This document shows, piece after piece, positions 6,875 to 21,226 of a DNA stretch of 64,000 nucleotides. Each line of letters opens with the position of its first letter. Position 1 is the stretch's first letter. The translations under genes and the position numbers were made by a program. The notes under the pieces were generated by a model. The model was not told the DNA's origin and did no database searches. It worked only from the letters and a program-made list of their open reading frames with translations. The DNA is from Sulfurospirillum diekertiae (lineage in GTDB: Bacteria; Campylobacterota; Campylobacteria; Campylobacterales; Sulfurospirillaceae). The stretch is taken from assembly GCF_002309535.1 (NCBI RefSeq), contig NZ_CP023275.1, positions 2,480,001-2,544,000 on the forward strand, written 5' to 3'.

Positions 6875-7897
6875 ATGCGCTATTTACTTCTCTTTTTACT
6901 TTTTTTTAGTTCACTTTTTGCCAATACAACACGCACATTTACTGATATTTCAGGAAAAAACATCAGCTTACCTGAACATGTCACACGTATTTATGGCTCA
7001 GCTCCTCCTATTACTTTTATGCTTTATGTCATCGATGATGCTCCACTCATTGGTGTGAATTTTCCACAGACAAATAAAGACAATAGTGATGGTGAGAAAT
7101 TTTTAAGCAAACACTTTATGAGCCTTCCTGTATTGGGTGGTTGGCATGGAAACAACACCCCTAACTTAGAGGCGATTATCGCAGTAAAACCCGATGTCAT
7201 TGTGACATGGGATACGCCACTTCTCAATGAAAAAACGGCCAAAGATTTAGCACGCATCAATATTCCAGCTCTCAAAGTGAATATTGATGATTCACGTCAT
7301 TATCCTGAAGTCTTTCGCTATCTTGGAAAAGTGATGCACAAGGAAGATCGTGCTAATCAGCTTGCAAATATGGCACAAAATTATTTGGATGAGCTTAAAA
7401 ATTTTGTAGCGACTGTTCCTGAGCAAGAGCGTACCAAAGTGTATTACGCAGAAGGTGATTTCGGACTTCAAACAGAGTGTGACGTCTCATTTCACTCTGA
7501 ACCTTTAACGCTTGCGGGAGGAAATTTAGTCCATAAATGTGTTCAAAATAGTGTTATCGGACTGCAAGAAGTCAGTTTTGAGCAGGTTCTCATCTATGCT
7601 CCCGATGTCATTATTGTGCAAAACCCCGCTTTTTATAAAACAATTTTTACCGATAAAAAATGGGCTATGCTTAAAGCGGTTCAAACAAAAAGAGTGTACT
7701 TAGTACCAAAATCTCCTTTTAACTGGACCGATCGTCCACCTTCCTTTATGCGTATTATTGGGGCACATTGGATTGCCAGTAAACTCTATCCAACACGTTA
7801 CCCTTTTAAGATTCAAGAAAAAGTGAGAGCGTTTTATCAACTCTTCTTTGGTGTCGCACTGAGTGACGAAGATCTCAAAACTTATTTTGATCTTTAA
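6875..7897 (+). CDS. Periplasmic substrate-binding protein, FepB/BtuF class (second copy)
   Basis: Secreted binding protein of 340 aa with a Sec signal peptide (LLLFLLFFSSLFA). It is a clear paralogue of the protein at 863-1879: it shares the mature start TFTDISGKNISLPEHV, the VYYAEG block with TECDVSFHSE and a following cysteine, and the C-terminal NWTDRPPSFMR. The ATG at 6875 has AAAGGA six bases upstream; a TTG directly before it is an alternative. No second permease or ATPase gene accompanies it, so it may deliver to the same FecCD transporter or act as a periplasmic carrier. Confidence 0.87.
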   Translation: MRYLLLFLLFFSSLFANTTRTFTDISGKNISLPEHVTRIYGSAPPITFMLYVIDDAPLIGVNFPQTNKDNSDGEKFLSKHFMSLPVLGGWHGNNTPNLEAIIAVKPDVIVTWDTPLLNEKTAKDLARINIPALKVNIDDSRHYPEVFRYLGKVMHKEDRANQLANMAQNYLDELKNFVATVPEQERTKVYYAEGDFGLQTECDVSFHSEPLTLAGGNLVHKCVQNSVIGLQEVSFEQVLIYAPDVIIVQNPAFYKTIFTDKKWAMLKAVQTKRVYLVPKSPFNWTDRPPSFMRIIGAHWIASKLYPTRYPFKIQEKVRAFYQLFFGVALSDEDLKTYFDL

Positions 7898-7903
7898 ATA
7901 CTA

Positions 7904-7933
7904 AGACTCTCTCATCAACCTTTTAGAGAGTCT
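7904..7933 (+). terminator. Stem-loop between the binding protein and the radical SAM gene
   Basis: AGACTCTCT and AGAGAGTCT form a 9-bp perfect stem with a 12-base loop. There is no strong T-run, so it may be a weak terminator or an mRNA processing or stabilising structure that separates expression of the two genes. Confidence 0.5.
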
Positions 7934-7975
7934 CTGGTTTGCAATGAAACCTACTTTTGATTAAAGGAATACCCT

Positions 7976-9757
7976 ATGATCTGCCCAATTTGTGAACGAA
8001 GATGCCGTGTTGAAGAGAACAGTGTTGGTGCATGTGGACGTTATCAATGTCACAACAATACCATGCTCGAACGCTTCCCAAACTCGTATCTTGTGGTAGC
8101 TCCCATTTCGGCTGAGACGATGCCAGTGCTTCACTTTCATCCCCGTGCAAAGTTTTTGCAAATTAGTACCACTGGGTGTAATTTTGACTGTTTGGGGTGC
8201 ATTTCAACAGTGGTGGCTAAAGAGATGGATGTGCAAAGTCCTGCACTTAAAAAACTCTCTCCCATACAAATTGTCAACAAAGCATTGGAGCAAGAGTGCG
8301 ATGGTATCGCTTTTTTAATGAACGATCCCCTCGCCTCTTTTTATAGCTTTCTTGAAATCTGCACCTTAGCCAAAGAGTGTGGGCTGCTGACAGGCTGTTC
8401 CACCAATGGCTATTTCACACCCGAATCGCTTAATCTGCTCGCTCCGCATTTGGATTTTGTGAACATTGGGCTTAAAGGTTTGTGCAATGACATCTACAAA
8501 AGTTGTGGCGCAAACAGTTACAAACCTGTTTTACGTAACATTGAACTTTTTTACCGAAAAGGCGTTCATGTCGAAGTGGCGTGTATTCATAAAAAAGATA
8601 ATGATGATGAAGTTCTTGCTATTGCAGATACTATAGCAAAGATTTCGAAAGAGATTCCGCTTCAGATCATGCGGTTTATTCCTATTGATGATGCCAATAT
8701 TAACCTTGAGCCATCCATCTTAGCTTCGGAAATGCTTTACAAAAAACTCACATCACGCCTTGATTATGTCTACTTGTTTAACTCCCCAGGATCAGAGTGC
8801 CTGAACACCTACTGCCCAGAATGTGGTGCGCTCATTTTTGAGCGAGATTTTTACGGCCCAATGGGTTCAAAATTAAGAACAATCAGCCACAACTATCAGA
8901 ACAATACCTGTTCACACTGTCATCATAAACTTCCTATCGTAGGGAACCCTTGTCAAAAAGTCTTTGATGAAGATGGTTTTGAAGGCGGATACCCACTTAC
9001 TAGAGCACTCGAAATTGTCGAAGGAACACTCGCAACACTTGGTGTGACAGATCAAAAAGAAGTTACGACATGTTGGGAAGAACTTTTACGTGGGGATGGA
9101 CTAAAACGTTTACATGTAAACATTCAAAACTTTGAAGATTATGCCACTACCATTCATTATCTTGCCAAAATGACCCACACAGAGACTACCGCCAAAAAAC
9201 TTCTAGCCTATATGCGAGACAAAATTGCCATTATTGCGCAAGAACTTCCAAAGGTAATAACAAAGCCCCGTGTTTATTACGTCATGGGTAAACCTTTATT
9301 TGCACTTGAAGAGGAGCGACTTGAAAATCAATTGGTCGAGATGGCGGGTGGTATTAGTGTCAATAAAACGCTCAGTTTAAAAGGAAGACCCGGACGGAAA
9401 ATCTCTGTTGAAACACTCAATGAACTCAACCCAGACGTTATGTTTATCTCTTCTTTTTTAGATTGTCCGTTGGACGAGTTTTACACTTTTTGTGAAGAGC
9501 AAGGTATTGTTGGCAATGCTGTAAAGAGTAAACGCATCTATACACACCTAGCCCCTTGCTTTGATTTTGGGAGCCCCCGATGGATTTTAGGCTTGATGCA
9601 CATCGCCAATATGTTGCATCCTGAACTTTATCATTTTGATGTTTTACACGAAGCAAAGGTCTTTTATCAGGAGTTTTATGACACACCATTAAATATACCT
9701 TCTATCAATCGCTCCTTTGCAAAACCAAGTCAATACCACAAGATGCTTCATATTTAA
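7976..9757 (+). CDS. Radical SAM enzyme fused to a BtuF-like binding domain
   Basis: A 593-aa cytoplasmic protein (no signal peptide) with two unlike halves. Residues 1-80 resemble pyruvate-formate-lyase-activase/AmmeMemoRadiSam proteins: CPICERRC with a later GACG, then LHFHP and the [4Fe-4S] motif CxxxCxxC at C68, C72, C75 (CNFDCLGC). The radical SAM core runs to about 270, followed by a cysteine cluster (CPEC about 280-283, CSHC about 312-315) that may hold zinc or an auxiliary cluster. Residues about 430-580 (VYYVMG, AGG, LNELNPDVMFIS, a FGSPRWILGL block) resemble the two periplasmic binding proteins of this locus but lack their ECDxSFH segment. I infer that the C-terminal domain presents the imported ligand or metal chelate to the radical SAM centre. 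I know of no named family with this architecture. Confidence 0.82.
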   Translation: MICPICERRCRVEENSVGACGRYQCHNNTMLERFPNSYLVVAPISAETMPVLHFHPRAKFLQISTTGCNFDCLGCISTVVAKEMDVQSPALKKLSPIQIVNKALEQECDGIAFLMNDPLASFYSFLEICTLAKECGLLTGCSTNGYFTPESLNLLAPHLDFVNIGLKGLCNDIYKSCGANSYKPVLRNIELFYRKGVHVEVACIHKKDNDDEVLAIADTIAKISKEIPLQIMRFIPIDDANINLEPSILASEMLYKKLTSRLDYVYLFNSPGSECLNTYCPECGALIFERDFYGPMGSKLRTISHNYQNNTCSHCHHKLPIVGNPCQKVFDEDGFEGGYPLTRALEIVEGTLATLGVTDQKEVTTCWEELLRGDGLKRLHVNIQNFEDYATTIHYLAKMTHTETTAKKLLAYMRDKIAIIAQELPKVITKPRVYYVMGKPLFALEEERLENQLVEMAGGISVNKTLSLKGRPGRKISVETLNELNPDVMFISSFLDCPLDEFYTFCEEQGIVGNAVKSKRIYTHLAPCFDFGSPRWILGLMHIANMLHPELYHFDVLHEAKVFYQEFYDTPLNIPSINRSFAKPSQYHKMLHI

Positions 9758-10921: not shown

Positions 10922-12001
10922 TTAAATGACATAATCATTCCATAAAGCCTCATTCGTATAGATGCGTGCACTCTCAAAATGGACAAACAAAGCGCCACTT
11001 TCATACGCTTTAATTGCTTGCCATTCGGTTTTTGAAATCTCAGCTTCCACCTTTTGGCGCTCATGCAGTGTTTCAAGCTCGACTCTCACACGAGGACCTA
11101 CCAATCTCCAGCCAATCAGCTTCGCCTCGATGCCACCACCAATGGCATTATCAATACTAATATGAATTTCATGCGGACGAACAAAAAGCGATGCTTCTTT
11201 GGAGCTCCCAAGATCGGGCGTATTTAGCTCGGTGTTTTCAAGGTGCAGTGAGCCTTGCTCCACACGGGCGTGAAACAGATTGACATTACCCAAGAAGCCA
11301 TAGACAAACGGATTAGCAGGTCGGTCATACACCTCTTCGGGCGTGCCGATTTGCTCGATTTTGCCTTGATTCATCACAACGATTTTATCGGAAACTTCAA
11401 GTGCCTCTTCTTGGTCGTGGGTCACAAAGACACTGGTAATGTGAATTTCATCGTGTAGATTACGAAGCCACTGGCGCAGTTCTTGGCGCACTTTAGCATC
11501 CAGAGCTCCAAAAGGTTCATCGAGCAACAATACCTTAGGCTCCACGGCAAGCGCACGTGCAAGCGCAACACGTTGGCGTTGCCCACCTGAGAGTTGTGAG
11601 GGATAGCGATTAGCAATCCAATCCAGCTGAATGAGTTTCAGCAGTTTATGGACCCGCTCTGTAATCTCCTCTTCACTCGGACGTGTTGCTTTGGGACGCA
11701 CACGAAGTCCAAAGGCAACATTTTCAAACACACTCATGTGACGAAAAAGCGCGTAGTGCTGAAATACAAACCCCACTCCCCGATCACGCACATGCGTTGC
11801 GGTCGTATCTTCTCCATTAAAATAAATCGTTCCACTATCCGCCTCTTCTAGTCCTGCAATGATGCGAAGCAGGGTCGTTTTCCCTGAGCCTGAAGGGCCA
11901 AGAAGCGCTACAAGTTCACCATCGGGAATGGTCAAATTGATGTTATCGAGGGCTGTAAAAGTATCAAAACGTTTATTAATATTTGAAATCTGAATACTCA
12001 T
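10922..12001 (-). CDS. cysA: Sulfate/thiosulfate ABC transporter ATP-binding protein
   Basis: ATPase of the sulfate importer, 359 aa. Walker [15 protein letters not shown]-loop [22 protein letters not shown], signature [15 protein letters not shown] and Walker [12 protein letters not shown] are intact, and a C-terminal TOBE-like regulatory region follows from about residue 235. The segment [20 protein letters not shown] is typical of CysA. It is the last gene of the leftward sulfate operon, 9 bases after cysW. Confidence 0.93.
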
Positions 12002-12010
12002 TCTTTATCC

Positions 12011-12847
12011 TTAATGCGCGAGTGAGCGTTTTTTACCGATGCGCCACTCAATGAAACTTTTTAGCACCAACGTTACCAGTGCTAAAAGGGTTAAAAGTGA
12101 AGCAACCGCAAAGGCCGCGGTGAAAAGGTACTCGCCGTATAAAATCTCTACATGTAAAGGCATGGTGGTCGTCAACCCTCTGATGTGACCTGAAACAACC
12201 GCAACCGCACCAAACTCACCCATCGCTCTGGCGTTACTTAAAATCACACCATACAACAGTCCCCATTTGATGTTGGGAAGCGTCACTTTCCAAAATGTTT
12301 GCCAGCCTGAGGCACCGAGTGTTAAGGCCGACTCTTCTTCATCTTTGCCTTGTTCTTGCATGAGAGGAATGATCTCACGTGCCACAAAGGGCGAAGTGAT
12401 AAACAAGGTTGCGAGGATAATGCCTGGTGTGGCAAACACAATACGTATATCATGCTCACTCAGCCACGCGCCAAACCAACCTTGACTTCCAAATAAAAGC
12501 ACAAAAATGAGACCTGCAATCACAGGAGAAACCGCAAAAGGAAGATCGATCAGGGTAATTAAAAACCCTTTACCTCGAAATTCAAACTTAGCGATCAACC
12601 AAGCAGTGGCAACACCAAAAATAGTATTGAGCGGAACGGTAATGAGCACTACTAAAAGTGTCAATTTAATTGCTGCAATGGCGTCTGGCTCACTGATGGA
12701 TTCCCAGTAAACTTTCCATCCTTTTGCTAAAGCTTCACTAAAAACTACGCCTAATGGAAGTGCTAAAAAAATGGCTAGGAAAAGAAGTGTAATGCCCAGT
12801 AAAAGTGGTTTCAACCACCTCGGTTCTAAACGATGTTCTGTTTGCAT
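12011..12847 (-). CDS. cysW: Sulfate ABC transporter permease CysW
   Basis: Inner-membrane permease, 278 aa, about six membrane helices. The EAA loop [31 protein letters not shown] and the segment [19 protein letters not shown], which is diagnostic for the CysW/CysT sulfate family, are both clear. Nine bases separate it from cysT upstream and cysA downstream. Confidence 0.93.
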
Positions 12848-12856
12848 CTTCTCTTC

Positions 12857-13687
12857 CTATAAACTTTTTTCGCGACTGTAAATCTGAATAGCATTAATCA
12901 AAAACAAAATGACGAACGTTGCAAGTAACATCACGGTTCCAACCGCTGTTGCGCCCACATAATCATATTGTGAAAGTTTTGTCACGATGATGAGCGGCAC
13001 GATTTCACTCACAAAGGGCATATTGCTTGAGATAAAAATAATCGAGCCATACTCGCCTAGCGCTCTTGCAAACGAGAGCGCAAAACCTGTTAAAAGGGCT
13101 GGCATTAAAGAGGGTAAAATGACCTTTATAAACGTTTGTAGCCATGATGCCCCCAAACTTGTAGCCGCTTCTTCAAACTCTTTTTCAAACTCCTCAATCA
13201 CAGGCTGAACGGTACGCACCACAAAAGGAAGCCCGATGAAGATGAGTGCGACCACAACACCTGCCCTAGAATAGGCGATCACGATGCCTAAGGGATCTAA
13301 AAGTCTACCGATCCAACCACTTTGTGCAAAAATAGCTGCCAGCGCGATACCTGCGACCGCTGTTGGAAGTGCGAAAGGTAAATCTACCAGTGCATCAACA
13401 ATTTTTTTGCCAAAAAAGTTATACCGAGACAGAGTCCACGCAACGATCAGTCCAAAAAAGAGGTTGACAACCGCTGCAATCAAGCTCGCTCCAAAACTCA
13501 GTTTAAACGAAGCCAATACTCTAGGGTCTATAATGACCGCACTAAATTCGCTCCATGAAAGTTTGGTCGTATAAAGCAGTAACCCTCCCAGTGGAATGAG
13601 CACTAGGAGGGTTACGTAAGTCAGGCTAAAGCCAAGCGTTAAGCCAAACCCTGGCAAAACACTGGGCTTTCTAAAGCGCCATTTCAT
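12857..13687 (-). CDS. cysT: Sulfate ABC transporter permease CysT
   Basis: Partner permease of CysW, 276 aa. It has the EAA loop [30 protein letters not shown], then [23 protein letters not shown], the standard CysT signature. It overlaps the sulfate-binding protein gene by 4 bases. Confidence 0.93.
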
Positions 13688-14703
13688 CGCTTAATTGAAG
13701 CGAAGATTTTGTCAAACTCGCCACCGTCCGCAAAGTGTTTCTTTTGAGCTTCCCCCCATCCGTTAAAGAGTGCATCAATCGTAAAAAGTTTAAGTTTTGG
13801 GAATGTTGATTCACTCTCTTTAATAATTTCAGGATCGGTTGGACGGTAGTAATTTTTCGCTGCAATTCTCTGCCCTTCTTTAGAGTAGAGGTACTCTAAG
13901 TAGGCGGTTGCTACCTCTTTCGTTCCTTTTTTCTCGGCATTTTTATCAACAACACTGACACTTGGTTCGGCTAGGATACTAATACTGGGAACGACGATGT
14001 CAAATTTATCGGGACCTAATTCTTTAATCGACAAGATCGCTTCATTTTCCCAAGCAATTAAGACATCGCCCAAACCTCTTTGAACGAAGGTATTGGTAGC
14101 ACCACGTGCGCCTGAGTCAAGGACGGGGACGTTGGCGTAAATTTTAGAGACAAACTCTCTGGCTTTCTCTTCACTGCCGTATTTTTCAAGTCCATAACCC
14201 CATGCGGCTAAATGGTTCCAACGTGCTCCACCTGAAGTTTTAGGATTGGGCGTTATAACTTTAACATCGGGCTTTGCTAAATCATCCCAGTCATGAATTC
14301 CTTTAGGATTGCCTTTTCGTACTAAGAAGACAATGGTAGAGGTATAAGGGGCACTGTTATGGGTAAATCGTTTTTGCCAATTAGGATCAATCGCATGCGC
14401 TTTTTCAGCGATGGCATCGACATCGTACGCAAGAGCTAAGGTAACAACATCTGCATCCAAACCATCGATAACACTTCTGGCTTGCGCACCTGAACCACCA
14501 TGTGACTGACGTACGGTTACGTTGTCACCTTTAATCTCTTTCCAATGTTTAGCAAAGGCTTGGTTATACTCTTTGTAAAACTCTCTGGTTGGGTCGTACG
14601 AGACGTTAAGCAAGGAGATATCTGCGGCGTGAATGGAAGGCACGATAAGTGCCAAAACTGCGACGGCTAATGAAAAAAGACGTTGTGTGTATAAGAATTT
14701 CAT
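13684..14703 (-). CDS. sbp: Periplasmic sulfate-binding protein
   Basis: High-affinity sulfate (or thiosulfate) receptor of the CysTWA importer. The start at 14703 gives a Sec signal peptide ending IHA and the mature start [17 protein letters not shown]; a longer frame from 14772 has no signal and reads through the leader region. [28 protein letters not shown] and [11 protein letters not shown] are hallmark Sbp/CysP segments. The ribosome-binding site is weak, so initiation may depend on upstream structure. The operon promoter and a Cys-rich leader peptide lie 150-280 bases upstream. Confidence 0.93.
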
Positions 14704-14856
14704 GTTTTTTCTTTCTGATTTTTTTCTGGAGTTCTCAAAGAACTCTTGTGATGACTCCTGAGTCAAGCTCAAAAGCTCTGCTAAACGCTACTTGCATCTT
14801 ACGCAAAGAAATTTTGCACAACTAAATGCATTTCTTTTTACATGTAAGACGTTTTT
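14704..14856 (-). promoter_or_regulatory. Structured leader between the Cys peptide and sbp
   Basis: On the minus strand the region holds GACTC-AG-GAGTC and AGAGTTCT-TTG-AGAACTC stem-loops close to the sbp start, plus one TTACATGTAA palindrome just after the peptide stop. A clear terminator with a long T-run is not obvious, so control may be on translation of sbp, whose ribosome-binding site is weak and lies next to the second hairpin. Confidence 0.45.
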
Positions 14857-14922
14857 TTAGCAACACATCAGACAAAAAACATGAGTACTCTTTCCATGAA
14901 TAATGGCTTTACTAGACTTCAT
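14857..14922 (-). CDS. 21-aa leader peptide ending in CLMCC, upstream of the sulfate operon
   Basis: A short open frame with an unusually strong ribosome-binding site (AAGGAGGTGAACC then ATG at 14922). It begins MKSSKAIIHG and ends VFCLMCC before TAA; three of its last five residues are cysteine. It sits about 25 bases after a near-consensus promoter and 153 bases before sbp, on the same strand. The arrangement is what is expected of a cysteine-sensing attenuator: ribosomes stalling on the Cys codons when cysteine is scarce would change folding of the downstream leader and let the sulfate genes be expressed. The function is inferred; the reading frame, the Shine-Dalgarno and the Cys cluster are seen directly. 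Confidence 0.72.
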   Translation of the reverse strand: MKSSKAIIHGKSTHVFCLMCC

Positions 14923-14951
14923 GGTTCACCTCCTTGTTTTGAATTGACGAA

Positions 14952-14980
14952 ATAATAGCAGATTCTTTTTTTATTGTCAA
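14952..14980 (-). promoter_or_regulatory. Sigma-70 promoter of the sulfate operon
   Basis: On the minus strand TTGACA (14975-14980) and TATTAT (14952-14957) are separated by 17 bases. Transcription would begin about 20 bases before the leader peptide ATG. Confidence 0.75.
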
Positions 14981-21012: not shown

Positions 21013-21144
21013 TTTCTCCTTGCAGAATTTCTCTTTGACTTCAAAGAGAGAGCTAAAGAAACCATGATTTCCTTAGCTCAACCTCTTTACATGTAAAGAT
21101 TTTAACTATGCAAAATAAGCATATTAATAGAACATAGAGCACCA

Positions 21145-21226
21145 AAGGTGCGTGGGCTTTCTGCTAAAGATTGCCCAGTGTTAACGTAGTCTTTAGAGCT
21201 TTGCTTTAAAGACGTGTCAAGAGTTT
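21145..21226. repeat. Intergenic hairpin repeat, copy A
   Basis: GCACCAAAGGTGCGTGGGCTTT, a middle part with TTAACGTAG, then the hairpin GTCTTTA-GAGCTTTGCT-TAAAGAC and GTGTCAA. It shares the GCAC..GTGCGTGG block, CTTTCTG and loop with copy B (32340-32445). It ends next to the stop codon of the TorD-like gene and may end or trim the upstream transcript. Confidence 0.5.

Follow-up and report, generated by a model that had tools for sequence, protein, structure and literature searches.

In translational attenuators of the ermC type, the Shine-Dalgarno sequence or start of the next gene is hidden in a helix, which is broken up when a ribosome stalls on the leader ORF. With regard to cysteine, Cys-rich leaders without terminators were predicted upstream of mycobacterial cys operons (PMC1262725), and a passage of PMC13236596 describes control by the M. 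smegmatis Cys leaders as translation attenuation, citing Canestrari et al. 2020, Mol Microbiol 114:93. In Campylobacter jejuni, leaders for Leu, Trp and Met (LeuL, TrpL and MetL) were proposed from transcription-start mapping (PMC3847290). Here we examine a short ORF that ends in two Cys codons and precedes a sulfate-binding protein gene, sbp. Its conservation and modelled folds suggest, with a probability that we put at roughly 0.55, that the sbp leader is a cysteine-responsive translational attenuator.

The window, by which we mean the whole 64-kb stretch of DNA that was analysed, comes from a genome of 2.81 Mb; the nearest named sbp-bearing record, at 95% protein identity, is a Sulfurospirillum genome. 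The sbp product scored 543.8 bits against NCBIfam PRK10752 (cutoff 288). The initial annotation had placed a near-consensus promoter, a strong Shine-Dalgarno sequence and a 21-aa ORF ahead of sbp-cysTWA, and all three are present (Table 1). The minus-strand promoter matches the consensus at 11 of 12 positions in the consensus scan, with a TG preceding its second hexamer, and AAGGAGG stands before the leader ORF, whose stop lies 153 nt from the sbp start at 14703. This is a predicted translatable short ORF between promoter and operon, as found in ribosome-mediated attenuators. The Shine-Dalgarno sequence of the window's sbp itself is weak, which counts against the attenuator reading. A known riboswitch was rejected, as Rfam gave no match in the window at gathering score.

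Table 1. Features of the sbp leader and operon in the window, and of the paralogous locus
Feature	Position	Strand	Basis
Promoter: TTGACA (14980-14975), 17-nt spacer, TATTAT (14957-14952)	14952..14980	-	consensus scan
Shine-Dalgarno sequence AAGGAGG of leader ORF	14929..14935	-	sequence; invariant in alignment
Leader ORF, MKSSKAIIHGKSTHVFCLMCC and stop, 21 aa	14857..14922	-	ORF list; codon conservation
Cys17; Cys20; Cys21; stop	14874-14872; 14865-14863; 14862-14860; 14859-14857	-	leader ORF
Predicted hairpin at leader start: CCAUGAA (14924-14918) with UUCAUGG (14900-14894; codons 8-10, His9-Gly10)	14894..14924	-	
Predicted anti-start arm UCAUGUUUUUU, leader codons 13-17	14874..14884	-	eight folds; RNAalifold consensus; duplex controls
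Outer extension of anti-start arm, AAGAGU	14892-14887	-	folds
Predicted partner arm AAAAAACAUGA with sbp start codon (14710-14700)	14693..14710	-	same folds
Outer partner, AUUCUU	14698-14693	-	folds
Second helix, 5' arm UCUGAU, in Cys-codon region of leader ORF	14867..14872	-	folds; duplex controls
Second helix, 3' arm AUCAGA, immediately upstream of sbp start	14714..14719	-	folds; duplex controls
Loop of long-range pairing: species-specific stem-loops and one TTACATGTAA copy (14838-14847)	14720..14856	-	
sbp, periplasmic sulfate-binding protein, putative controlled gene	13684..14703	-	NCBIfam PRK10752; Pfam
Sulfate permease and ATPase genes	10922..13687	-	ORFs
cysT	13687-12857	-	named from sequence and gene order
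cysW	12847-12011	-	named from sequence and gene order
cysA, ATPase with CysA C-terminal domain	12001-10922	-	domain match
Paralogous leader MTFYHAPFHGKTTLVLCLMRCC and stop, with GGDEF-EAL locus	L190 about 7030-8453; G000:C1:2670373-2670452	minus in L190	

The leader ORF is strictly associated with sbp. We sampled 24 genomes of the genus, 8 with sbp and 16 without (some of the latter incomplete), allowing up to 3 mismatches in the search; the ORF was found in 8/8 sbp-bearing genomes and in 0/16 of the others. It is 21 codons long in all eight, and the promoter before it keeps an identical layout throughout. Codons 4–7 vary freely among the eight species. The codons for V15 (GTT), F16, L18 (CTG), C20 and C21 and the stop are identical in every leader, as is the whole stretch from codon 18 to the stop, and this identity suggests that not only the peptide but also the RNA is constrained. 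In sbp itself, 84 of the 276 codons that are amino-acid-invariant are also codon-invariant (30%). As all eight genomes are related members of one genus, they do not count as independent cases. Conservation of the ORF and of its Cys codons in relatives had been named as the check on the initial annotation, and the terminal Cys-Cys pair is indeed found in every sbp-bearing relative in the genus. Of the proposed CLMCC ending, then, Cys20-Cys21 is strictly kept (8/8), but Cys17 occurs in 6/8 only, being replaced by His in L084 and by Phe in L086. The leader shares conserved codons for the end product of the pathway, here cysteine, with ribosome-mediated attenuators. Elsewhere in the phylum (397 sampled genomes) the leader pattern gave no match except one, in L182, which is unlike the sbp leader. 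A second CxMCC ORF, an extra match of our first pattern in L095, was rejected because it is another frame of a longer coding sequence.

The stem-loops noted earlier near the sbp start do exist, but they lie in a stretch conserved neither in length nor in sequence; what is conserved is a predicted long-range pairing of the leader ORF with the sbp start. The gap between ORF and sbp ranges from 56 to 198 nt among the eight species and differs in sequence as well: it is only 56–61 nt in four of them, and the long gaps are full of local stem-loops. The MFE folds of 8/8 species show the sbp start region paired with the 3' part of the leader ORF, and RNAalifold run on the joined arms gave the same first helix, with one-sided consistent changes only. 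For the second helix, the 5' arm reads UGUGUUGCU in six relatives, and in six species other than that of the window UGUGUUGC(U) pairs with AGCACACA, AGCACA, CAACACA or GUAACACA. The whole leader folds better than 200/200 shuffles (z = -3.3) and shuffled duplex arms gave values of 0.000–0.16. Judged on duplex energy by itself, 15% of the other gene starts fit the window's leader no worse than sbp does. The alignment fold of the eight leaders contained no two-sided compensatory changes in the leader-sbp helix and the covariation term was neutral, and we therefore rejected covariation as proof of the helix. Pairing with the sbp start of the same species likewise showed no significant advantage over cross-species pairing (0.30), as the arms are nearly invariant, and this comparison was rejected as proof of co-evolution. 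Finally, the hairpin at the leader start was seen in 7/8 MFE folds (it is absent from L086), with 7 invariant pairs in the alignment fold, and could account for the conserved His-Gly.

The loop enclosed by the long-range pairing also contains repeated sequence. TTACATGTAA, often as CTTTACATGTAAA, is a highly iterated palindrome with 37 copies in the 64-kb window (for example at 2490, 4103, 14838, 15388 and 63808) against 0.12 expected, and the next commonest palindromic 10-mer has 3. Fourteen of the 37 copies lie outside ORFs, though such sequence makes up about 9% of the bases. A count in 16 kb of L190 gave 12 copies; loci of other genera, 130 kb in all, contained none, and neither did the sbp loci of two species of the genus, L085 and L087. 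A 73-nt dispersed repeat with 90% identity occurs at 21138-21210 of the window and in the leader gap of L083. Since it sits inside that gap, the loop of the putative attenuator appears to tolerate inserted intergenic repeats.

To describe how this predicted pairing would depend on the position of a ribosome, we modelled how costly it is to open the sbp start (-12 to +5) when a ribosome sits at each leader codon in turn, its footprint reaching from 12 nt before to 16 nt beyond the first base of the P codon. In the species of the window, the modelled cost is 12.2 kcal/mol without a ribosome and 10.5–11.5 kcal/mol with one on codons 1–5. It falls to 1.8–1.9 kcal/mol when codon 16 or 19 is in the P site, so that the A site holds Cys17 or Cys20. 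If the A site holds Cys21 instead, the start is only partly opened (4.6 kcal/mol), and with the ribosome at the stop the cost is 7.1 kcal/mol. The other seven species follow the same modelled trend, which is weakest in L087 (4.1 to 1.4 kcal/mol). As a control, sbp was exchanged for other gene starts in six species. The 52 other starts of the window gave a mean free-minus-stalled change of 0.3–0.7 and a maximum of 5.7 kcal/mol, against 10.4 for the window's sbp, and the share of other starts doing as well as sbp was 0, 0, 0, 0.019 and 0.019 in five species and 0.115 in L087. Synonymous recoding of codons 14–21 hid the start as well as the native sequence in 0/60 cases each for L081, L097 and L083, 1/60 for L086 and 2/60 for L082; this support is weak in L084 (6/60), L085 (9/60) and L087 (22/60). 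Thus, other gene starts and synonymous recodings, as well as the Arcobacter-type leaders described below, mostly behave differently from the sbp leader in these models, with support that is uneven among species. As in translational attenuators, a predicted helix lies over the start of the downstream gene, and, in the model alone, a ribosome stalled at the regulatory codons opens it.

In the mechanism that we propose, a single transcript from a putative start at about 14946 would carry the leader ORF followed by sbp-cysTWA. When charged Cys-tRNA is ample, the ribosome would complete the leader and depart, and the 3' part of the leader that it uncovers (UCAUGUUUUUU and the Cys-codon region) would pair with the sbp start region and hide the start. 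When charged Cys-tRNA is scarce, the ribosome would stall when Cys17 or Cys20 enters the A site, covering the 5' arm of the helix, so that the sbp start would stay open and more sulfate would be taken up. We infer that the leader is translated, that ribosomes stall on it upon cysteine shortage and that this affects sbp; control is predicted to act on sbp translation. The Cys codons would have a mechanical role, because they would place a paused ribosome over the 5' arm of the start-hiding helix. This role and the conserved Cys-Cys speak in part for the earlier suggestion of a link between Cys-tRNA supply and sulfate uptake through ribosomes that pause at Cys codons; the dispensability of Cys17 in two species limits this support. 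The accompanying analogy with amino-acid attenuators is retained for the Cys-codon leader but not for the transcription type: the terminator scan found no intrinsic terminator between leader ORF and sbp in the window, and no candidate was seen by eye in the 56–61 nt gaps of four relatives. Lacking the intrinsic terminator of trp-type attenuators, and with gaps that short in four species, the sbp leader is not a classical transcription attenuator, and we rejected that reading. A translational attenuator would explain why the ORF ends in Cys-Cys, why certain codons are fixed, why the gap can vary and why no terminator is present.

The same genome carries a paralogous leader, MTFYHAPFHGKTTLVLCLMRCC, with a similar promoter and 102 nt before a GGDEF-EAL gene. 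Of the 24 genomes of the genus, 4 have it, and in one of them Arg replaces Cys17. Near it are genes for two PAPS-reductase-domain proteins and an EF-Tu-type GTPase, which we take for cysH, cysD and cysN. NCBIfam matched neither the sbp leader peptide nor its paralogue, and membership in a known leader-peptide family was rejected. A mechanism of the sbp type was also rejected at the paralogous leader, as the modelled cost of opening the downstream start changes from 3.1 to about 2 kcal/mol only and depends little on the ribosome. It is a tentative and rather doubtful idea that one leader family, HGKxTxVxCLM(R)CC, links cysteine supply both to sulfate import, with the sbp start hidden by the leader coding sequence, and to the cyclic-di-GMP enzyme GGDEF-EAL beside sulfate-assimilation genes, setting second-messenger output. 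If true, the paralogue would tie cysteine supply to cyclic-di-GMP signalling.

The lack of an intrinsic terminator also fits Rho-dependent transcription attenuation, in which RNA exposed after the leader stop would let Rho terminate before sbp and a ribosome at the last Cys codons would mask the region beside the stop where Rho enters. The Cys codons do directly adjoin the stop, TAAAAAAACG on its 3' side is nearly invariant in the alignment, and Rho-dependent attenuation has been proposed for the terminator-less mycobacterial Cys leaders (PMC1262725). We nevertheless consider it unlikely here, since the remaining gap is unconserved and as short as 56 nt, and since Rho accounts neither for the helix at the sbp start and the way it depends on where the ribosome stands, nor for the synonymous-codon constraint. 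Alternatively, the peptide HGKxTxVxCLM(R)CC could be a nascent-chain arrest sequence or ligand sensor with the RNA helix as its output. That the paralogous leader retains HGKxTxVxCLMxCC before an unrelated gene agrees with this, as does the gathering of conserved residues at the C-terminal end, which resembles arrest peptides. The residues vary freely, however (Cys17 becomes His or Phe, and Arg in the paralogue; His14 becomes Arg and Lys11 becomes Asn), the His-Gly can be explained by the CCAUGAA-UUCAUGG hairpin and the rest by pairing with sbp, and only two such leaders occur per genome, all of which makes an arrest peptide quite improbable.

The ORF might also encode a small functional peptide, for example a metal- or thiol-binding one, that is merely co-transcribed with sbp; its start signals are strong and its Cys-Cys end is conserved, but the N-terminal third is variable, no NCBIfam family matches and the invariance at synonymous positions indicates a constraint at the RNA level, so that we regard this as very improbable. 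Hardly credible is an ordinary untranslated leader, with an accidental ORF that is conserved only because the promoter region is young and changes slowly. All eight genomes do come from one genus, which would fit, yet codons 4–7 vary heavily in an ORF that retains its frame, length, start, stop and Cys-Cys, the adjoining gap differs completely between species, and a paralogue exists elsewhere in the genome. Altogether, we favour the cysteine-responsive translational attenuator.

Outside the genus, sbp is preceded by other micro-ORFs. Arcobacter-type relatives (L104, L106-L113, L117-L119 and L150-L160) have an unrelated Met/Cys micro-ORF, MMCDMCK..., in which the Met residues are kept, whereas some copies lack one of the two Cys. 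In the same scan, the position of the ribosome hardly altered the modelled opening of the Arcobacter-type sbp start, and a mechanism of the sbp-leader type was rejected for these MMCDMC leaders. Their conserved pairing encloses the ORF: UUUCACC pairs with GGUGAGA, behind which a U run lies past the ORF. A second pairing, AGGUGA with UCACCU, shows one two-sided change, and these pairings would fit transcription attenuation. An upstream hairpin, GGUGAU-AUCACC, becomes GAUGAU-AUCAUC in L113 and L150. In L124 (G281:C1:2275341), an MMCDMC leader was found before a gene for a sulfonate/taurine-type binding protein, about 11 kb from sbp. Two more families have related Cys-bearing ORFs ahead of sbp (L102, MAQMCSDCYCQ...; L116, MMMDMCKTK), and none was found at seven loci of another family. 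These differing Met/Cys micro-ORFs suggest a repeated origin of sulfur-amino-acid leaders ahead of sulfate importers.

Whereas the ermC leader is stalled by an antibiotic, the sbp leader would stall from uncharged Cys-tRNA. Its nearest counterparts in the phylum are LeuL, TrpL and MetL of C. jejuni, which are likewise rich in the regulated amino acid, in the case of MetL also a sulfur amino acid; they were proposed to act by transcription termination, and no cysteine leader is mentioned (PMC3847290). Nor did we find a report of a cysteine leader from this phylum in the open-licence literature searched. If our reading is true, the Campylobacterota would have a leader peptide that senses cysteine; the single survey of leader peptides that we found for them names only Leu, Trp and Met leaders (PMC3847290). 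With the Cys leaders of mycobacteria and other Actinobacteria it shares a short ORF, Cys codons adjoining the stop, a position before genes of sulfur assimilation or transport and no obvious terminator (PMC1262725). The mycobacterial leaders are leaderless poly-Cys ORFs, however, and the sbp leader does not belong among them: it has a 5' leader with a strong Shine-Dalgarno sequence and three Cys, two of them consecutive, and no sequence relation to them. It is further set apart in that the leader ORF itself carries the complement of the downstream start, which would make for a compact design in which one RNA stretch serves as coding sequence, amino-acid sensor and lid on the next start.
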